The notes under the pieces were generated by a model. That model was not told the origin of the DNA, made no database searches, and saw only the letters and a list, made by a program, of their open reading frames with translations. From NCBI GenBank assembly GCA_013290045.1, contig JABCYU010000007.1:1-34640 (forward strand): a DNA stretch of 34,640 nucleotides, in the 5' to 3' direction. Made by a program: the position numbers and the translations under genes. Below are positions 7,937 to 34,088 of this stretch, one piece after another (the stretch's first letter is position 1; every line of letters starts with the position of its first letter). This DNA comes from Methanobacteriota archaeon. Lineage in GTDB: Archaea > Thermoplasmatota > Thermoplasmata > Lutacidiplasmatales > UBA184.

Positions 7937-10669
7937 TCAGTGCGGGGGGCTCGGGGCCGCCGGATCCGGCTCCTCGCTCCAGTCGGGGGGGAGCGGCGCC
8001 AACCGGGCGGAGGCCGTCGGTAAGCCGGCCGCCGGGGACGCCACGGATCCCGGGGGGCGTGGCGGGGGCCGTCGGGTCCACCAGACGATGGCTCCGGCGA
8101 CGAGGGCCGCCGTCCCTCCGAGCGCCAGGCCGAGGAGCAGCCAGGTGGGCGGGCCGCCCGCCGAGCCGTTCGTCGAGGGACCATGGGGCGGTCCGCCCAT
8201 GTTCGGCCCCGTGGCACTGGCGGTCCGGAACCAGAAGGTGACCGGGTGGGCGAGCGGGGTTCCCGTGGAGCTTTGCGCCGATGTCGAGAGGGTCACGGTG
8301 TAGGTCGTGTCGAACGCCAAGGGGGCGCTCGGGGTCCATTCGAGGACGCTCGACGACACGTTCACCGAGCCGGACGGCGCCCCGGGGGCGATCGAGAACG
8401 CGGCCCTCAGGGAGGTCCCGTTCATCGGGCCGTCAAAGGTGACCCACACCGAGGCGTTCCGGGAGACGTTGGTCGAGCCGTTCATCGGCAGGACGGCGGT
8501 GACCAACGGGGCGACAGCGGAACGGGTCGTGAAATCGAACGTGTAGGGAACCGCGAGCGTGGAGCCGGATCCCGTCGAGGCATTCGCCGCGATCACCACG
8601 GTGTACGTGGTGCCCGCGTCCAGAGATCTCGAAGGGGTCAGGGTCAGGTTGCGATCGAGCGGATCCCACGCCGGGGCGAGCGGGACGCTCGGGCGGATCG
8701 ACACGGCCGCCTGCGTCGTGCTCGGATTCATCGAGAATCCGAACGCGATGACGATGGGGGGCGGGTTGAGGGCGATCGAGGTGGAGCCGTTCCCGGGGGT
8801 CGTCGACTGGACGATGGGAAGGAGCGGGATCGCCGTCCATTCGACGCCCGTCACCTGCGCGAGGGTCAGGGTGCCCAGGTCATCCTGGAACGTCGTGGCG
8901 ACGGTGTACCCCGGATGCGACCAACCGATGTTGGTCAGCACCGCCCCCACCAGCGGGGTCGCCCACGCGCCGGAGGGATCGGAGGTCCCGGACGCCGCCA
9001 AGCTTCCGTTCGACGAGAAGCGGACGCTGACCGAAGCCCCGCGGACCGGCGAACCCGAGAGGGAGAGGTTCGTGTGAACGCTCCACGCGACCCGGACGAT
9101 CCCGCGCGAGAGCGTCTGATAGGTGTCCTGCGGCGCCAAGGAGGTGTCGAGGGCGTAGACCGAGGCGCTCCCGGTGGCGAGCACTCGGGAGGGGTACGCG
9201 CTGGCGATAGTACAGTTCACGAGCGAGGTGGAGCCCGAATACCCCACCACCTGGCCGTGGACCTGCGAGTCGGTGATCGTCAGCGTCGAGCTGCCCTGGT
9301 TTCCATAGTACCCTCCCCGCGCGGTGAGGTTGCTCGCAACGACCCGCGTCGTCGCCGCGCCGAACTGCTGGATCTCCCCGACCTGACTGTGGGAGATCGC
9401 CACGCTCCCGCCGAACGGGTAGATGTTCCAGGTGAAGATCGACGTGTTCCAGAGCCGCAGGGCGAGGCCGTCCGAAGCGAGGGCGAAGTGGGGATAGTGG
9501 CCCTCGACGAGGCCGGAGAGGACGAGGCTTCCTGCGTCGAGGTTGAGGGCCATCACGACGTCCGGCGAGTTCACGATCGTCAGGTTGCTCCCCTGCCAGA
9601 GCATCACGGCGAAGACGAGGACGTAGCAGTTGACCACCCGGACCGAGTAGTTGAGCCCGGAGACCTGGGCGGCGCCCGGGAACGTCCAGTTTCTCCATCC
9701 TTGGAGTCCGGGGAGGGTGAGGTTGGCGCGCGCCCCGGACTTGAAGTTGAGCCAGATATTGAACCCGGCCGAGTCGCCGGCGGAGAAGTTCGCCGTGGAC
9801 GGCGTGAACGGATTATCGAAGAGAATGACGTCGGAGGAGTACCACGAGTAGAGGACGGTGAGGTTCGCCTGGCCGACGAGCTCCGTATCGAGCCAGCCGC
9901 TCGGGTATCCCACGAGCGAGGAGATGACCGTGACGTTGGAGTTCCCCTCGTAGGCGGCTCCCCACTGGTAGCCGTTGGTGGTCACATTGGCGTAGGCGAC
10001 GACGAACCGGGAGTGGCCCGTCATCTGCAGGTTCCACTCCACATCGTACGCCTCGCCGATCGCGAGGTTCGAGGCGTTGACGAACAGCAACCCCTTGCCG
10101 CTGAGCCGGATGTTCCCGAGGACGGTGAGCGTCACCCGCTTCGTTGGACTGTGGACGTAGAGGGTCGCGTTGTCCTGGACGGTGATGTTCCGTACCGTGA
10201 GATTCGCCGAGACGATCATCGCCGTCGTGCCGGAGAGGTTGAGGTCGGACGGGGAACCCGAGGGGGCCGGGGACATCGGGTGGCTCGCGCCAACGAACGG
10301 GGCCGGGGGGAGCAACCCCGTCCTGACCGCGGGGGACGATGGAAGGACCACCGCGTGGCGACCGTGGTCATCCGTCTCGGAGAGGGTTCGCCCTACCTCC
10401 GGCAGGCTCGGTAGCGGCGATCGGGGGCTCTTCGCCCCGGGTCCCATCGAGGGGATGGAAGTCGCCGAACCCCGGTACTTGGCAACGTGAACGCTCGCCC
10501 CGAGCGCCACGGGAACCAGCTCGAGCGGGCCAGCGAGCAGCAGCACCACCCCGAAGATCAGCGCGGCGGCGGCCGGCGAATGACGCGGCCGTCGCGATTG
10601 GGCATTCGCCCCCCGGTTCGGAGATGGGCCTCGACGGGCCGCCGGAGGCGCCGGGCGGGGATCCCTCAC
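7937..10669 (-). CDS. Large surface protein: beta-helix-like region, two SbsA/Big_5-type Ig-like domains, C-terminal TM and Pro-rich tail
   Basis: N-terminal signal/TM; 'STTPGNGSTSIALNPPPIVIAFGFSMNPSTTQAAVSI' and 'AVLPMNGSTNVSRNASVWVTFDGPMNGTSLRAAFSI'; C-terminal TM followed by 'RRPPPRPPG'. Confidence 0.85.
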   Translation of the reverse strand: MRDPRPAPPAARRGPSPNRGANAQSRRPRHSPAAAALIFGVVLLLAGPLELVPVALGASVHVAKYRGSATSIPSMGPGAKSPRSPLPSLPEVGRTLSETDDHGRHAVVLPSSPAVRTGLLPPAPFVGASHPMSPAPSGSPSDLNLSGTTAMIVSANLTVRNITVQDNATLYVHSPTKRVTLTVLGNIRLSGKGLLFVNASNLAIGEAYDVEWNLQMTGHSRFVVAYANVTTNGYQWGAAYEGNSNVTVISSLVGYPSGWLDTELVGQANLTVLYSWYSSDVILFDNPFTPSTANFSAGDSAGFNIWLNFKSGARANLTLPGLQGWRNWTFPGAAQVSGLNYSVRVVNCYVLVFAVMLWQGSNLTIVNSPDVVMALNLDAGSLVLSGLVEGHYPHFALASDGLALRLWNTSIFTWNIYPFGGSVAISHSQVGEIQQFGAATTRVVASNLTARGGYYGNQGSSTLTITDSQVHGQVVGYSGSTSLVNCTIASAYPSRVLATGSASVYALDTSLAPQDTYQTLSRGIVRVAWSVHTNLSLSGSPVRGASVSVRFSSNGSLAASGTSDPSGAWATPLVGAVLTNIGWSHPGYTVATTFQDDLGTLTLAQVTGVEWTAIPLLPIVQSTTPGNGSTSIALNPPPIVIAFGFSMNPSTTQAAVSIRPSVPLAPAWDPLDRNLTLTPSRSLDAGTTYTVVIAANASTGSGSTLAVPYTFDFTTRSAVAPLVTAVLPMNGSTNVSRNASVWVTFDGPMNGTSLRAAFSIAPGAPSGSVNVSSSVLEWTPSAPLAFDTTYTVTLSTSAQSSTGTPLAHPVTFWFRTASATGPNMGGPPHGPSTNGSAGGPPTWLLLGLALGGTAALVAGAIVWWTRRPPPRPPGSVASPAAGLPTASARLAPLPPDWSEEPDPAAPSPPH

Positions 10670-11462: not shown

Positions 11463-12755
11463 TCATCCACCCTGGCGGCACGGGAGGCGACCGTCGCGGA
11501 TCGCCTCAACGAGGAGCCGATAGTCTGCGGAGTTCTGTTCCGCGTACGCCTCGGCGAACTTGGTGATCGCCACGTCGAACAGATCCTTCTCTCCGAGATA
11601 CCCGGCGATGATCGCCGGATCGCCGGTCCGCGCATGCGCGCGAGCGAGCGCCGTCGCACAGAGCTCGGCGTGGCCGGCGAGTTCCCGAGCTCCCATCTCC
11701 CCGATGTCGACCGCGAACTTCATGTCGCGGAGCTGGCGGATGTAGAAGTCCCGGGAGCGCCACCGGCTCCACCCCAGGAGCACGTCGCTCGCCTCCTGGA
11801 TGAGGTGCTGTCCGACCACCACCCGTTGGGCGTGATTGGGGTAGATGCTCCGCGGCAGGTAGGCTTCGAGCGCCGAGTCATCGGCCTCTTTGAGCTGGAG
11901 GAACAGCGGATCGCCGACGTCGCCGTCGCCGAGGAGAAGCAGGACCGAGCAGGTGGTGCCAACGCTCCCGACGCCGACCACCTTCTGGGCGACGTCCACG
12001 ACCTCGTAGCGGTCCAGCAGCAGCCGTCGTTCCTCCGGAAGGGTCGAGCGGTACCGGTCGAAGAACGTCCGGGAGGCGTAGTCGTCGGCGGGATCCCGGT
12101 AGTGGACGATGAGCGGGGGTTCGTCGCGGATCCGGACCTTTCCACCGGGCCCGGGCCTCGCCATCTTCGGGAAGGCGTGGAGATCGGTCTGCCCACGCGC
12201 TCGCGCGACGGCGCGCCGGACCATCGCCCGGCCGATGGGGGAGAGCTGCGAAAGGCTCTCGGCCCGGTCGAGGTGCCAGTACCACACCGACAGGTACGGC
12301 ATCGAGGCGAATCGCTGCATCCAGTTCCGGTAACCATGGACCGTCGAACGGACCACGCTCCTGAGGTCGGTCCGCGAGATCCGGTTCTGCTGGCCGGCGA
12401 CGAACAGGCTCGTCGCGAGGCGCTTCACGTCCCACTCCCAGGGACCCGGGAGCGTCTCGTCGAAATCGTTCACGTCGAAGACCAGGTCGCGCTCCGGGGT
12501 TCCGAAGACGCCGAAGTTGCCGAGGTGGGCGTCCCCCGCGAGTTGGACCCGTATTCCGCTGGCCGGTGTTCCCGCGAGATCGCGGGCCATGATCGTCGCC
12601 GCCCCGCGCAGGAAGGCGAACGGCGAGGCGGACATCCGTCCGTACCGGATCGGGAGAAGCTCGCGGCGTCGGCCGCGGTCGGCCGTCTCGAGAAGTCGGA
12701 TCGGATCCGGTCGATCCGGGGACGGCGACCAGAGGGCGTGTCGGGATCGCGGCAC
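11463..12755 (-). CDS. DUF2252 family protein (kinase-fold-like); N-terminus probably extends upstream
   Basis: 'PIRYGRMSASPFAFLRGAATIMARDLAGTPASGIRVQLAGDAHLGNFGVFGTPERDLVFDVNDFDETLPGPWEWDVKRLATSL'. Confidence 0.93.
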   Translation of the reverse strand: MPRSRHALWSPSPDRPDPIRLLETADRGRRRELLPIRYGRMSASPFAFLRGAATIMARDLAGTPASGIRVQLAGDAHLGNFGVFGTPERDLVFDVNDFDETLPGPWEWDVKRLATSLFVAGQQNRISRTDLRSVVRSTVHGYRNWMQRFASMPYLSVWYWHLDRAESLSQLSPIGRAMVRRAVARARGQTDLHAFPKMARPGPGGKVRIRDEPPLIVHYRDPADDYASRTFFDRYRSTLPEERRLLLDRYEVVDVAQKVVGVGSVGTTCSVLLLLGDGDVGDPLFLQLKEADDSALEAYLPRSIYPNHAQRVVVGQHLIQEASDVLLGWSRWRSRDFYIRQLRDMKFAVDIGEMGARELAGHAELCATALARAHARTGDPAIIAGYLGEKDLFDVAITKFAEAYAEQNSADYRLLVEAIRDGRLPCRQGG

Positions 12756-26460: not shown

Positions 26461-26583
26461 CCGCAGCGAGACCGCCTCCCCGCCCTCCCGGGGCTGAGAC
26501 GGGGGACCCGGCCCCGATGCCGACCCGGGACCACTAGGACCCCACGGATGAACCGTTATGGACCATGGGGCCATCGCGGCCGC

Positions 26584-26799
26584 GTGGACGACCGGGAGAA
26601 GGAACTGCTCACCGGGATGGGGAACTGCTTCGCGGCCTGCGGGGAAGATTTCGAAGGGACGGTCGGCATGGTCGCCGGCGCGAGACAACGGCAGGTCGCC
26701 GAGGTGATCGCGACGCTGGCCCGGATGCGTCGACTCTACTCCGGGGACTCCGACTATCAGTCCCTCCGCGCCCGCCTCCCCGCGTCGTTCCCGCTGTAG
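26584..26799 (+). CDS. Small hypothetical protein (71 aa), first gene of a three-gene operon
   Basis: GTG 26584 about 26-30 nt after the TATA-like 'CCGTTATGGA'; 'VDDREKELLTGMGNCFAACGEDFEGTVGMVAGARQRQVAEVIATLARMRRLY'; next gene follows within 3-18 nt. Confidence 0.6.
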   Translation: MDDREKELLTGMGNCFAACGEDFEGTVGMVAGARQRQVAEVIATLARMRRLYSGDSDYQSLRARLPASFPL

Positions 26800-26801
26800 G
26801 A

Positions 26802-27713
26802 GTGGATCCCGGGACGATGACCCGTTGTCCGGCGTGTCTGGGGTCGTTCCCGGAGGGGGACCTGTCGGCCCTGGCGGAGCACCTCGTGGACCGGGCCTCG
26901 GAGAGCGATTCGGCGCACGTACGGTGGCTCAATCAGAACGTGACCCGACAAAAGTGCGAGGCGTCGGAACTCCTCCCGGCCCTTGAGCAGCTTTTCGCCA
27001 TCGGCCGCGGGGGCCTCCCGGGGTGGATCAAGGGACGGTTCATCGCGAAGTTCTACGGGAAGGCGCCCCACCCGTTCGTCGTGGCGCTGCAGCATCCGTC
27101 CCGTGCGACGTTGCTCGGCTATGTGGTGGAGCACCAGCATTTCCTTCGGCAGTGGGTCCGGTCCTGTTCGTTCATCATGGCTCGGACGGACGAGCGGAAG
27201 GTCGTACTCTACGAGCTCGACAACCTGAACACGGAGTTCGGGGGGTTAGGCCCCGACCGGGTCGCCCACTACGAGCTTCTGCTCCGGATGGGGGAGAGCC
27301 TCGGGGTCGACCGAGCGCGCGTCCTCTCCCTGGAGCCCCTGCCGGCCACCCGTCGCGGGATCGAAGGTTGGAACCGGATCGCCTCGGAGGAGCCGTGGGT
27401 CGCCGCCCTCGCGGCGATGCACGGGCTCGAGCTGATCGCCAATCGCGACCTCGTCAACGAGGGCGCGTCGATGCGCTACTTCGACCCGGAGATCCTGGAG
27501 GGGAGCGAGATCACCCACGAGGCGAAAGCGTTCCTGCGCGAGGGGTACGAGGCCGACGTGGCTCATTCGGGAGAGGCGCTCGACCTCGTGGCCGAGTTCG
27601 CCCGGGGCCGCGCCACGATCGAATCGGTCCAGTCGACGTTCCTGCGGTCGATCGATCTGTTCGACGACTACCTGATGGCCCGGCTCGAGCGGGGAGCCCA
27701 GTTTGAAGCGTAA
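26802..27713 (+). CDS. Heme-oxygenase-like (TenA/PqqC-type) putative iron-containing redox enzyme with N-terminal Cys/His motif
   Basis: 'CPACLGSF..HLVDRASESDSAHVRWLNQN', then 'VEHQHFLRQWVR', 'LDNLNTEFGGLGPDRVAHYELLLRMGESLG', 'EITHEAKAFLREGYEADVAHSGEAL'. ATG 26817 is an alternative start. Confidence 0.72.
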   Translation: MDPGTMTRCPACLGSFPEGDLSALAEHLVDRASESDSAHVRWLNQNVTRQKCEASELLPALEQLFAIGRGGLPGWIKGRFIAKFYGKAPHPFVVALQHPSRATLLGYVVEHQHFLRQWVRSCSFIMARTDERKVVLYELDNLNTEFGGLGPDRVAHYELLLRMGESLGVDRARVLSLEPLPATRRGIEGWNRIASEEPWVAALAAMHGLELIANRDLVNEGASMRYFDPEILEGSEITHEAKAFLREGYEADVAHSGEALDLVAEFARGRATIESVQSTFLRSIDLFDDYLMARLERGAQFEA

Positions 27714-27999
27714 CTTCGCGGGATGTGCCATCTGCGACTCGACCTGGGGCAACGTCTGGGAGGAGGTCGAGGGGGAGAGGATGTTCTTCTGCTGCCGGCT
27801 GTGCGCCACCCAATTCCGGACCCTGATCGAACGGATCGAACGGGAGACGGGCTGGACCACGGTCGAGGCGGTAGAGATCTCCGGCGACCGGCGCGGTCGC
27901 GAGTGCGTCGCGCGCTCGGGTTCGGGATCGATCCGGGTCGTGTTCAGCTTCACCCCAGAAGGGGAGCTTCTGCGGTTCGTGAGCCATGCCGTAGCTTGA
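27703..27999 (+). CDS. Ta0938-like small zinc-binding protein
   Basis: TTG start overlapping the upstream gene by 11 nt; 'FAGCAICDSTWGNVWEEVEGERMFFCCRLCATQFRTLIERI'; family recalled from Thermoplasma Ta0938. Confidence 0.7.
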   Translation: MKRNFAGCAICDSTWGNVWEEVEGERMFFCCRLCATQFRTLIERIERETGWTTVEAVEISGDRRGRECVARSGSGSIRVVFSFTPEGELLRFVSHAVA

Positions 28000-28030
28000 C
28001 GTTGGGCCGCTCGTCGAGTGCGACCGACAT

Positions 28031-28040
28031 GTTTAGAACG
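28031..28040 (+). promoter_or_regulatory. TATA-like box (GTTTAGAACG) for the first kelch/PKD paralogue
   Basis: About 25-30 nt upstream of ATG 28062; nearly identical context upstream of the second paralogue. Confidence 0.55.
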
Positions 28041-28061
28041 GGAGGGCCGGTTTCACGACAC

Positions 28062-30005
28062 ATGGGATCTCGCCCGACCATCCGGAAAACTCTCCGCCGA
28101 ATCACGGCCGTCACCGCGTGGCTGCTCGCCGCGACCTTCATCCTCTCTGGGGCCGTCCTCGTCGTCTCGGGTCTACCTTCCTCGCGAGCTCCGTTCCCAT
28201 CCTCGCACCACGCTCCGATCCAGTTCGGGGCGGCCGAGCGGCAGGCGGCCTCGGCGTCCCTTGCGAGGGGTGAGGGTCCCGCGGTCGGACACCCGTCCAC
28301 GTTGCCGATCTCTCCGGGCGGGTATACCTGGACGAACGTCTCCTCGGCCCTCTCCAACGCCCCGTCGGGACGGGTCGGCTCTCTGACCTGGGACGCTTCG
28401 GACGGCTACGTCCTCCTCTTCGGCTGGGCGACCATAGGCCACTCGCTCAACGATACCTGGTCGTTCGTCAACGGCAACTGGACGAACCTCACGGCGTCGG
28501 TCGGGACCTCCCCACCGCAGTCGGAGTACCAGTCGTTGACGTTCGATCCGTCCAGCCAGAAGGTAGTCATGTTCTACCCGTACTTCAACGCCACCTGGAC
28601 CTACCATAACAAGGTCTGGGCGAACATCACCGGAACCGCCGGAGCCCACCCGCCCGCCGCGATGTACGCGCAGTTCGTGACCGACTCGACGGACAACGAG
28701 GCCCTGTACTTCGGTGGCCAGCAACTCTACGGGCCGTCGATCCCCCATGACACGTGGGCGTTCAAGAACGGGACGTGGAGCAACATCACCGGGGCCTCGC
28801 CCTTCCAGTTCGGGAACATCCAGCTCCCCATCGCCTCGGATGACCCCGCGGACCACGGGGTCCTGGCGGTGGCGCTCTCGGTCTGGCATTCCACGAGCCC
28901 GGCGCTCGTGAAACCCACCACGTTCCTCTTCTCCGGCGGTACGTGGACCAACCTGACCCCGAGCGTGTCGGCCGAGCCCCCGATGACCGAGCTCGCGACG
29001 ATGGCGTACCTTCCGTCGATCTCGACCGTCGTCTTCGAATCCGACCTCACCCTCAACAGCACCGGAAATGTCGTCTCTCTCATCGGGCTCACCTGGGAGT
29101 TCTCGCACGGCTCCTGGACGAACGTGACCGCCGCGACGGGAGTCCAGCCCGACGACGGGATCATCACGACGTCCGCGGTGGACCCCGGCCGCGGGACGAT
29201 GGTCATGTTCTCCGGGGAGCGCCTCATCAGCCCGGCCGTTTACCCGGCCACCTGGCTGTTTTCGGCCCCGCCGGTGGTCACCGCCTCCGCGTCCAAGTCG
29301 GTGATCGACGCCGGCCAATCCGTCACGCTCACCGGGACGGTATCGCTCGGGGCCGCCCCCTTCGGGCTCAGCTGGAATCCGGGGGACGGATCGAGCCCCA
29401 CGAACGCGAGCCTCTCCATCAGCCACTCCTACTCCAAGGTGGGGGAGACCACGGCGACGTTCACCGTGAGGGATGAGGTGGGGCACGCCGCCGCCGCGAC
29501 CGCGAGCTTCTACGTGAACCCGGCGCTCGTCGTCTCCGCGAACGCGACCCCCGCGAGCGCGAACAACGGCACCTGGGTGGCCCTGGTCTCGCAGGTCACG
29601 GGCGGATCGGCTCCGTTCACCTACGCATGGTCCCTAGGGGACGGCGCGACCGGAACGACCCCCTCCTTGGCCCACGCCTACTCCCACAGCGGGAACTACA
29701 CCGTCAACGTGACGGTGACCGATGCGGCGGGTGCGGTGCAGTCCGCCACGTTCGTCGTGGCCGTCCATGCTGCCCCGGCCCCGAGCCACCCCGCCTCGAG
29801 CGGCTCCAGCTCGGTCAGCCTCACGAGCGGGACCGGACTCGGCCTGCTCTTGGGGATCTTGGTGTTGCTCGTCGTGGTGGTCGTGCTCGCCGTCCTCCTG
29901 ATGCGGCGACCGAAGTCCCCGCCGGGCACCCTTACCCCGTACGCGTCGACCCCGCCGGCATCGCCCGCCCCGCCGCCCGGCGCGGGGGGCCCGCCGGGCT
30001 CGTAA
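28062..30005 (+). CDS. Surface protein: kelch/galactose-oxidase-like repeats, two PKD domains, C-terminal TM and Pro-rich tail (paralogue 1)
   Basis: Repeats 'TWSFVNGNWTNLT', 'TWAFKNGTWSNIT', 'TWEFSHGSWTNVT'; PKD 'GLSWNPGDGSSPTNASLSISHSYSKVGETTATFTV' and 'TYAWSLGDGATGTTPSLAHAYSHSGNYTVNVTV'; TM then 'RRPKSPPGTLTPY'. Confidence 0.92.
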   Translation: MGSRPTIRKTLRRITAVTAWLLAATFILSGAVLVVSGLPSSRAPFPSSHHAPIQFGAAERQAASASLARGEGPAVGHPSTLPISPGGYTWTNVSSALSNAPSGRVGSLTWDASDGYVLLFGWATIGHSLNDTWSFVNGNWTNLTASVGTSPPQSEYQSLTFDPSSQKVVMFYPYFNATWTYHNKVWANITGTAGAHPPAAMYAQFVTDSTDNEALYFGGQQLYGPSIPHDTWAFKNGTWSNITGASPFQFGNIQLPIASDDPADHGVLAVALSVWHSTSPALVKPTTFLFSGGTWTNLTPSVSAEPPMTELATMAYLPSISTVVFESDLTLNSTGNVVSLIGLTWEFSHGSWTNVTAATGVQPDDGIITTSAVDPGRGTMVMFSGERLISPAVYPATWLFSAPPVVTASASKSVIDAGQSVTLTGTVSLGAAPFGLSWNPGDGSSPTNASLSISHSYSKVGETTATFTVRDEVGHAAAATASFYVNPALVVSANATPASANNGTWVALVSQVTGGSAPFTYAWSLGDGATGTTPSLAHAYSHSGNYTVNVTVTDAAGAVQSATFVVAVHAAPAPSHPASSGSSSVSLTSGTGLGLLLGILVLLVVVVVLAVLLMRRPKSPPGTLTPYASTPPASPAPPPGAGGPPGS

Positions 30006-31790: not shown

Positions 31791-32130
31791 GTGACCACAG
31801 GCGCACGAGTGTTGGTGGTTCCGCCCGACGAAGGCCGGCCCTTCCGGATCGGAGTGGACCGATTCCTCACGAAGGGAATGGCTGGGGACGTTCGGAGGCG
31901 CTCACGCTGGTCGAGAACGAGGGCGCGCCTGGCGTTGCCGGGCCCCGGCCTCGAGGGCACCACGCGATCGCGAGGCGTAGTTCCTCCTCTCGGGCAAGGT
32001 CGCCTTCGCCGCGGCCCGACAGCGGGTGAGGGCCACGCCCGGTACCTGCCTGATCGTTCCTCGGGGCCGCCGGCGAGAGCCGGACCGGCCCGCCGCCGAC
32101 AGGCCGGCCCGAGCGACCGACACGTTTTAG
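31791..32130 (+). pseudogene. Degraded cupin-domain gene (two frame changes and an in-frame TAG)
   Basis: Frame 1 'VLVVPPDEGRPFRIGVDRFLTKGMAGDV', frame 3 'EALTLVENEGAPGVAGPRPRGHH', frame 2 'RDREA*FLLSGKVAFAAARQRVRATPGTCLIVPRG' (TAG 31978-31980); together they read like one cupin. Confidence 0.68.
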
Positions 32131-32133
32131 AAC
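32124..32133 (+). promoter_or_regulatory. TATA-like box (GTTTTAGAAC) for the second kelch/PKD paralogue
   Basis: About 25-30 nt upstream of ATG 32157; matches the promoter of paralogue 1. Confidence 0.55.
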
Positions 32134-32156
32134 CGCCCGCCGGCGTCCCGTACCCC

Positions 32157-34088
32157 ATGCGGTCGAGCGACCGAGGCGCGGGAATGGCGACCTGGCGAAC
32201 CATCGGCATGGCCCTCGCGATCACGTGCGTCGTGCTCATCTCGGGGGGATGGGCAGGTTCGCTCAGCGGATTTCACCCCCCGGGGGCCGCCCGACCAGTG
32301 AGCCACGTCTCCTCGCCCGCCGACGACCCAGCCCAGGCGGCTCGCGCGTCGCTCGCTCGGGGCGCCGGGCCGGCCGCGTTGCACCCCATGACCCTGCCGG
32401 TTTCCCCTGGAGGATACTCCTGGTCCAACATCACCGGGGCTCTCTCGGCGGCTCCGTCCGGCCGGCTCACCTCGATGACCTGGGACGCCTCGGATGGTTA
32501 CGTGCTGCTCTTCGGTTGGGAAAGCCTCTCCGGCTTCGAGCGGGACACCTGGACGTACTCGAACGGCAACTGGACGAACATTTCCGGCCAGGTAGGGACC
32601 CCACCGCCTCTCACCCAGGGCCCTCTGATGTCGTTCGATCCCTCGACCCAGAAGGTCGCCTTGTTCGCCCCGTACAACAACACGACTTGGACCTACCACG
32701 CGGACGTCTGGACCAACGTCACGGGAACTTCGGGAGTCCAGCCGGCTCCGCTGGCCTTCGCGTCGTTCGTCTCGGACACCACCGATAACGAGGCGGTGCT
32801 ATTCGGAGGCTCCGACCTCTTTGGCTCCCCCTTCGCATCCCAGACCTGGGCCTACAAGAACGGGACATGGAAGAACCTCACCTCGACCGCGCCGTTCCAG
32901 TTCGGCCGGATCTACCTCCCCACCGGTTCGGATGATCCGGCCGACCACGGGATCCTCGCCCAGGCGATCTCGATCTGGAAGAACACAAGCCCGTACAACT
33001 ACCGCGAGACGACGTTCCTGTTCAGTGGCGGGAGCTGGACGAACCTCACCCCGTCGATCTCGACCGAGCCGCCGGTCGGAGAGTTTGTCGCCATAGGATG
33101 GCTCCCATCGATCTCCGCGGTCGTCCTCGAGCAGCCGTTCTTCATCAACAGCACCGGGTCGATCGTCGACACGGCGGGCGACACCTGGGAGTACTCCCAC
33201 GGGGCGTGGACCAATCGGACCGGGGTGACCGGCACGCAGCCGAATCCCGGCCAGCTCACGAGCAGCGCGGTTGACCCCGTCGACGGAACGATGGTGATCT
33301 TCGGGGGATTGCGATTCGGCTCGCCCGGCGTGTATCCGGCGACCTGGTTGTTGTCGGCCCCACCGAGCGTGACCGCCTCGGTCTCGAAGTCGTCGATCGA
33401 CGCGGGACAGTCCGTCACCGTCACGGGGTCGGTCTCCGGCGGCGCCTCGCCGACCCTGGTCCGTTGGAACCTCGGCGACGGGTCGAACTCCACCACGCTC
33501 TCGGCCTCGCACGTCTACTCGAAGACGGGGCTCATCACCGCCACCCTCACCGCGACCGACCTCGTGGGACGTGTGGTCTCTGCCTCGGCGAGCCTTTGGG
33601 TGAATCCCGCCCTAGGGGCGAGCGCGAACTCCACGCCCAATACGCCCGGGAACGGGAGCTGGGTGGCGTTCGCATCGCAGGTCACCGGCGGCACCGCCCC
33701 GTGGACGTACGCGTGGACCTTGGGGGACGGGAGCACCAGCGCCGCTCCCTCGTTCGGTCACGTCTACGCCCGCGCCGGGAACTACTCGGTGGCGCTGAAC
33801 GTCACCGACGGAGCGGGGGCGATGAAGACCGTGGCCTTCGTGGTCGATGTCCACGTTGTCGCCGTTCCCCATCCGGCCTCCGGTTCGTCCGGCTCCGTGA
33901 GCCTCACGAGCGGGACGGGGTTGTACCTCCTGCTCGGCCTCCTGATCCTGCTCGTCCTCGTCGTGGTCTTGGCCGCCCTGCTCGCCCGTCGTCCCCGATC
34001 TCCCCCGGGAACCCTCCAGCCGTACCCGACGACCCCATCCTCGTCGCCGACCCCGCCCCCGGGAGCCGCGGGTCCACCTCCGTCGTAG
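32157..34088 (+). CDS. Surface protein: kelch/galactose-oxidase-like repeats, two PKD domains, C-terminal TM and Pro-rich tail (paralogue 2)
   Basis: Same architecture as 28062..30005, e.g. 'MTWDASDGYVLLFGW', 'TYAWTLGDGSTSAAPSFGHVYARAGNYSVALNVTD', 'SVSLTSGTGLYLLLGLLILLVLVVVLAALLARRPRSPPGTLQPY'. Confidence 0.92.
   Translation: MRSSDRGAGMATWRTIGMALAITCVVLISGGWAGSLSGFHPPGAARPVSHVSSPADDPAQAARASLARGAGPAALHPMTLPVSPGGYSWSNITGALSAAPSGRLTSMTWDASDGYVLLFGWESLSGFERDTWTYSNGNWTNISGQVGTPPPLTQGPLMSFDPSTQKVALFAPYNNTTWTYHADVWTNVTGTSGVQPAPLAFASFVSDTTDNEAVLFGGSDLFGSPFASQTWAYKNGTWKNLTSTAPFQFGRIYLPTGSDDPADHGILAQAISIWKNTSPYNYRETTFLFSGGSWTNLTPSISTEPPVGEFVAIGWLPSISAVVLEQPFFINSTGSIVDTAGDTWEYSHGAWTNRTGVTGTQPNPGQLTSSAVDPVDGTMVIFGGLRFGSPGVYPATWLLSAPPSVTASVSKSSIDAGQSVTVTGSVSGGASPTLVRWNLGDGSNSTTLSASHVYSKTGLITATLTATDLVGRVVSASASLWVNPALGASANSTPNTPGNGSWVAFASQVTGGTAPWTYAWTLGDGSTSAAPSFGHVYARAGNYSVALNVTDGAGAMKTVAFVVDVHVVAVPHPASGSSGSVSLTSGTGLYLLLGLLILLVLVVVLAALLARRPRSPPGTLQPYPTTPSSSPTPPPGAAGPPPS

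Follow-up and report, generated by a model that had tools for sequence, protein, structure and literature searches.

Three genes lie close together on one strand of a 34,640-nucleotide stretch of archaeal DNA (the window), and the locus raises the question of whether their products work together and in what kind of system. The operon encodes a 71-aa helical Cys protein (26584-26799, +, GTG start), a heme-oxygenase-like (HDO) protein of 298 aa (26817-27713, +, after a 17-nt gap), and a Ta0938 protein of 98 aa (27703-27999, +, TTG start), whose gene overlaps the HDO gene by 11 nt. The coordinates and the three-gene, one-strand layout given in an earlier sequence-only reading were exact on re-reading. 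The window comes from a 2.2-Mb Thermoplasmatota MAG in which HDO is single-copy, and the nearest relatives of the locus are found in Thermoplasmata MAGs.

All three genes were compared with relatives of 61-74% protein identity, and differences were counted by codon position. Third codon positions were the most variable in every comparison for all three genes, with example values of 0.21/0.19/0.51 for the small ORF, 0.19/0.14/0.45 for HDO and 0.34/0.15/0.49 for Ta0938, indicating that these are real translated genes under selection. This pattern, together with cross-phylum conservation, rules out that the small ORF is GC-rich noise. The GTG start at 26584 is consistent with the starts of its homologs, and since these homologs start at the GTG position, an ATG further upstream (26548) was discarded as the start. 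A putative TATA-like promoter box, CCGTTATGG, is located at 26553..26561 (+), about 23-31 nt 5' of the first start codon, which suggests a leaderless operon starting at the small ORF. The equivalent position in L073, L075 and L077 carries CCTTAAGG, about 25 nt 5' of the small-ORF start. Judged from the box in these relatives and in the window, transcription probably starts at the small gene.

Outside the conserved unit, the operon is surrounded by genes for large surface-type proteins with PKD, kelch-like and Big_5 domains (27723-30005, +; 31791-34088, +; 7937-10669, -). The first of these ORFs probably starts near 28063, about 60 nt 3' of Ta0938. The window also encodes a DUF2252 protein (11463-12755, -; Pfam E 8e-140), a member of a family without assigned function.

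The Pfam matches of the HDO protein are TENA_THI-4 (4.6e-32, the top match), Haem_oxygenas_2 (PF14518; 1.5e-16) and zf-C2H2_9 (8.5e-13). Structure prediction, which the sequence-only reading had proposed for this enzyme, gave a confident heme-oxygenase-like AF2 model (pLDDT 95.3). A Foldseek search with the model retrieved 4LQX first (TM 0.92), then CtCADD, and also PqqC, BesC, HrmI and UndA. The AF2 model, the Foldseek matches and PF14518 place the protein among HDOs with the seven-helix heme-oxygenase-like fold. The window's HDO is an ortholog of SSO2700 from Saccharolobus solfataricus (PDB 4LQX), a structural-genomics structure with no function assigned, over its full length including an N-terminal finger (phmmer E 7.6e-91; 48% identity).

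Metal ligands were mapped by a profile alignment of HDO with CADD, and conservation was assessed over 48 HDO sequences. The ligands of CADD are E81, H88, E142, H174, D178 and H181, a numbering that agrees with the alignment. In this alignment, E81 corresponds to E140 (27234..27236, +), H88 to H151 (27267..27269, +), E142 to E205, D178 to D247 and H181 to H250. The remaining ligand, the first His of helix alpha3 (H174), is replaced by G243, and this position is Gly in 48/48 sequences; G243, D247 and H250 are encoded at 27543..27566 (+). Besides the five ligands and G243, the residues E105, H106, E133, N136 and H202 are identical in all 48 sequences. E105 and H106 (27129..27134, +) lie in helix 96-123, and H202 is one turn before E205 (27420..27431, +, for the two residues). 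The window's HDO thus carries five of the six ligands of the canonical motif E-H-E-H-D-H, spread over alpha1, alpha2 and alpha3, and has E-H-E-G-D-H. Since the first alpha3 His is Gly243, it was classed as a variant rather than a canonical HDO member. The candidate ligands named in the sequence-only reading were largely right (E140, H151, E205, D247 and H250), but its EHQHF segment is not among the canonical ligands, and Gly occupies the place of the first alpha3 His. The usual motif, E-H-X-H-D-H or E-H-X-H-E-H, occurs in about 85% of the groups surveyed (PMC11363339). The mononuclear-iron HDO FlcD, with the motif E-H-X-H-V-R, likewise departs from E-H-X-H-D-H in helix alpha3 (PMC11363339); FlcD retains only the first of the three alpha3 ligands, the His, whereas in the family studied here it is this first one that is missing and the other two that are present. 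As far as the conservation pattern goes, H202 and/or H106 may compensate for the lost alpha3 His. The Gly at this position could also mean that the protein holds one metal or none.

The altered site raises the alternative of a metal-independent TenA- or PqqC-like enzyme, with Ta0938 unrelated to catalysis. TENA_THI-4 as the top Pfam match and the Gly at one canonical ligand position agree with it. However, the five metal-ligand positions do not vary in the family and are lost jointly in the paralogs described below, and profile similarity favours CADD over PqqC or TenA. The PqqC equivalog model scores only 14.7 against a cut-off of 240, with the general TENA_THI-4 model matching strongly. We consider a metal-independent enzyme improbable.

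The nearest characterised enzymes, by both profile and fold, are the CADD / PabS self-sacrificing p-aminobenzoate synthases (1RCW, 8VA9, 9PJ4), with the same fold and 5/6 metal ligands. This closeness speaks for a CADD-type enzyme making p-aminobenzoate for the pterin cofactor. CADD uses Tyr27 as the sacrificial residue and Lys152 as the amine donor (PMC11965152). In the HDO family, the profile alignment places no conserved Tyr at the Tyr27 position and the Lys152 position is variable (R, K, E, D or N), which disfavours this reading. The family further differs from CADD/PabS in the Gly that replaces one alpha3 ligand, the extra His106 and His202, the N-terminal finger and the Ta0938 partner. 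The pair is also missing from close relatives, unlike a gene for an essential cofactor, and a p-aminobenzoate synthase is very improbable here.

The N-terminal Cys/His motif pointed out in the sequence-only reading is present and represents a known C2H2 zinc finger, C4-x2-C7...H22...H34 (26826..26918, +; zf-C2H2_9, PF16293; 48.4 bits against a cut-off of 29), with ligands invariant in 48/48 sequences. It is dispensable in two loci (L067 and L069), where the finger is absent and Ta0938 is kept. These two finger-less proteins retain the whole metal site. In our preferred reading, the finger would be structural.

The opposite situation is seen in three paralogs without Ta0938, all from one clade (L070:8828-9727, L071:9177-10085 and L072:8977-9879). 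They bear the finger and have lost most ligands: H106, N136, H151, H202 and D247 are lost in 3/3, E140 and H250 in 2/3, and E105 and E133 are kept. H106 thus belongs to the site that is lost together. Loss in these paralogs and retention in the finger-less proteins indicate that Ta0938 tracks an intact metal site, not the finger. In their conserved neighbourhood, the paralogs are followed by a conserved 85-109 aa gene that does not resemble Ta0938. It is possible that they are pseudoenzymes with another job.

The neighbourhood of the two genes was examined across archaea. A total of 80 related loci were obtained by an HDO-profile scan of the sequence collection, from Thermoplasmata, Bathyarchaeota, Nitrososphaerales/Thaumarchaeota, Sulfolobales, a Heimdallarchaeote and others. 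Ta0938 is directly downstream of HDO on the same strand in 79 of them; in the sole exception (L141), the contig stops inside HDO. Such retention of gene order shows that the arrangement did not arise at random. Two of the 79 pairs (L146 and L150), as well as L211, have an HDO frame broken by a stop, with the adjoining Ta0938 open; the broken frames may stem from faulty sequence in low-coverage MAGs, or from decay at an early stage.

The same association is found from the side of Ta0938. Among 293 Thermoplasmatota genomes, 22 contain Ta0938, and an HDO of the same family is immediately upstream in 22/22, with the pair degenerate in one of them (G219). The other Thermoplasmatota with HDO at E < 1e-20 (G171 and G210) have only a divergent paralog. 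In genus g12, three genomes contain both genes and the fourth (99% complete) contains neither; in the window's genus, Ta0938 is present in two sampled genomes and absent in six. Given this distribution within genera, HDO and Ta0938 are accessory genes that are transferred or lost together. In the degenerate case (L068:9077-9829 in G219, of the window's genus), HDO and Ta0938 are apparently fused into one open 250-aa frame, and in-frame deletions have taken out the majority of the ligand positions as well as the Ta0938 cysteines; the upstream small ORF (L068:9747-9962) is intact. The fused frame represents either an operon in decay or an artefact of the MAG.

Among 300 Thermoproteota, the 12 genomes with strong Ta0938 matches (E < 1e-30) are the same 12 with strong HDO, and all pairs are adjacent. 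In seven more genomes, PF11494 gave weak and for the most part partial matches that still passed the cut-off, and no HDO was detected: six of these genomes (G424, G448, G387, G597, G418 and G532; loci L170-L175) carry partial matches, and in G571 the match is at a contig start. These weak matches are probably other TRASH-like proteins. One genome, G578, is the only one in this sample with two strong Ta0938 copies (G578:C1:81238-81498 and 88916-89188; L209), the second being about 7.5 kb from the HDO-linked copy.

Beyond the pair, the neighbours vary in both Thermoplasmatota and Sulfolobales, so the conserved unit is HDO-Ta0938. For the same reason, a pathway deduced from the neighbours was rejected. 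An anti-phage role was rejected as well, as PADLOC found nothing.

The neighbourhood conservation that the sequence-only reading had asked for in the Ta0938 family was therefore found, and strongly; the lack of co-occurrence that would have spoken against its proposal did not appear. Functional coupling of HDO and Ta0938 is strongly supported by universal adjacency in the sampled genomes and joint presence or absence within genera, and is further backed by the loss of the metal site in the paralogs without Ta0938. The two proteins almost certainly act together. In openly licensed literature, no description of the pairing was found for SSO2700, 4LQX, 2FQH, PF11494 or the Ta numbers, and the partnership of SSO2700 with Ta0938 has not been pointed out there. 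A 2007 list of 30 proteins common to Thermoplasmata and Sulfolobus includes both Ta0938 and Ta0939 ('PQQC') and does not discuss them as a pair (PMC1852104).

The Ta0938 protein of the window belongs to the Pfam family Ta0938 (PF11494; E 1.7e-28, 99.3 bits against a cut-off of 27). The one solved relative in this family is Ta0938 of Thermoplasma acidophilum (PDB 2FQH), which matches the window's protein at E 1.2e-13 (9e-30 with the profile) and has the same Cys cluster; its gene adjoins the HDO gene of that organism (L064). The cluster, C8-x2-C11-x18-C30-C31-x2-C34, is TRASH-like, and all five Cys are invariant in 36/36 sequences. The C-terminus is variable in the alignment. The five invariant Cys and a weak TRASH similarity (PF24273, E 6e-4) suggest, at the level of sequence, that Ta0938 binds metal. 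A Zn-bound Ta0938 could also be purely structural.

Ta0938 might alternatively be an electron-transfer partner, in which the Cys would bind iron in a rubredoxin-like manner and feed electrons to the HDO centre. Many diiron enzymes need a reductant, which fits this alternative, as do the five invariant Cys. TRASH-type Cys clusters are usually tied to Zn or Cu, however, and the C-x2-C-x18-C-x3-C spacing is of this type. Nor is a reductase gene located alongside the pair in the neighbourhoods examined. A precedent is the mangotoxin system MboA/MboB, in which an HDO likewise has a dedicated redox partner (PMC13185094), but MboB, an NAD(P)H reductase with flavin and Fe2S2, has no relationship to Ta0938. 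We regard electron transfer by Ta0938 as unlikely.

In the alignment of the third component, the 71-aa protein, C15 and C19 are invariant and the C-terminal tail, LRxRLPxxFP, is conserved. Its AF2 model has four helices (mean pLDDT 92.1). No Pfam or NCBIfam model scored above cut-off, no significant PDB sequence match was obtained, and Foldseek with the model gave no significant fold match, the weak ones including HTH domains. On these results, assignment to a known family was rejected, and the 71-aa protein represents an unnamed, clade-specific family. The profile scan detected the small gene in 34 of the 80 loci, in each case immediately before HDO, with 7-22 nt between the two in 30 loci and 73-122 nt in four. 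These loci form one clade of the HDO tree (SH-aLRT 98) that includes several phyla. The gene is present in every clade member whose upstream sequence was available and is absent outside the clade; the group labels on the tree derive from an earlier, less sensitive small-gene scan. In the class of G294 (Bathyarchaeia; 151 genomes), 12 genomes contain the small gene and 13 a strong Ta0938. By coordinates, the 12 small genes are all in triads, and the 13th Ta0938 is at a contig edge. Among the 293 Thermoplasmatota, the small gene is confined to the window's genome and that of one congener, each time beside HDO. The window's HDO shares about 60% identity with Bathyarchaeia copies, compared to about 45% with those of Thermoplasmatales from its own phylum, a pattern consistent with horizontal spread of the operon between soil archaea. 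The 71-aa protein may be a clade-specific third component, acting as an effector or adaptor.

It could instead be a substrate. According to this alternative, HDO would act on one or both of its small partners, the 71-aa protein and Ta0938, by analogy with RiPP-type and self-modifying HDOs. The obligate 1:1 pairing without pathway genes is in line with a protein substrate, and so is the conserved motif with which the small protein ends, LRxRLPxxFP followed by a hydrophobic residue. MboA acts at a peptide C-terminus (PMC13185094), and CADD consumes its own residues (PMC11965152). Nevertheless, the small protein is missing in half of the pairs, the Ta0938 C-terminus is variable and no protease or exporter gene is linked, so that this alternative seems rather improbable.

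The three proteins might also form a regulatory module, in which the finger, the TRASH-like protein and an HTH-like small protein would act on nucleic acid or in metal sensing, with the HDO fold as a sensor of a ligand or of metal. Zinc-finger and TRASH-like domains are common in regulators, and HTH domains are among the best, non-significant fold matches of the small protein. The conserved catalytic-type site, the dispensable finger and the lack of a fixed target neighbourhood argue against it, and we give such a module little probability.

The distribution of the operon suggests a link to oxygen. In the class of G294, COX1 (heme-copper oxidase) was found in 10/13 operon genomes compared to 10/138 others (Fisher p 3e-8), with no COX1 match in 3/13 operon MAGs. 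As the genomes are related, this association is supportive but not proof, and a single aerobic clade may lie behind it instead of independent events. Other operon carriers in the HDO scan include Thermoplasma, Ferroplasma and Sulfolobales, which are aerobes or facultative aerobes. Overall, most archaea with the operon are aerobic, and in one otherwise mostly COX1-negative class it tracks heme-copper oxidase.

Our preferred reading, held at slightly less than an even chance, is an O2-dependent metal oxidase operon with Ta0938 as an obligate accessory subunit. The operon would be a self-contained, O2-dependent metalloenzyme system of mostly aerobic archaea. HDO itself is likely an O2/metal oxidase, for which the conserved site and the association with heme-copper oxidase genes are indirect evidence. 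It would bind two metals (probably Fe/Fe or Fe/Mn) through the non-standard ligand set E140, H151, E205, D247 and H250, with H202 and/or H106 replacing the first alpha3 His. Ta0938, the Cys-cluster subunit, would be made by coupled translation, bind HDO, and load, retain or gate the labile metal centre. HDO metal centres have been described as labile (PMC13108848), making a metal-loading, retaining or gating subunit the most economical role for Ta0938; we assign it loading or gating tentatively. The changing neighbourhoods suggest that the substrate is a general metabolite or a protein and not the product of a pathway next door. Metal content, O2 chemistry, physical binding and the role of Ta0938 are points that we infer, and the same holds for the shared redox, metal-handling or small-molecule oxidation role put forward in the sequence-only reading.

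According to a review, the HDOs examined to date do not depend on a protein effector (PMC13108848), and MboAB is perhaps the first dedicated HDO-redox partner pair, according to its authors (PMC13185094). The partner in the present operon would be of a different type from MboB. The HDO family described here is a strong candidate for an enzyme that needs a protein effector, with an altered metal site. It is possible, though still doubtful, that the operon represents a new multi-component archaeal HDO class, with a rebuilt dimetal centre (E-H-E-G-D-H plus His202/His106), dependence on the treble-clef-like Ta0938 (for metal loading, gating or electron donation), and the 71-aa protein, of a previously undescribed family, as a third component in one cross-phylum lineage. 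Two structures without function, 2FQH (deposited as a hypothetical protein) and 4LQX (released in 2013), represent the two halves of one obligate gene unit and can therefore be studied as a complex. This pair is kept across Thermoplasmatota, Sulfolobales, Bathyarchaeia, Nitrososphaeria and Asgard archaea, and the operon provides a lead on archaeal adaptation to oxygen.
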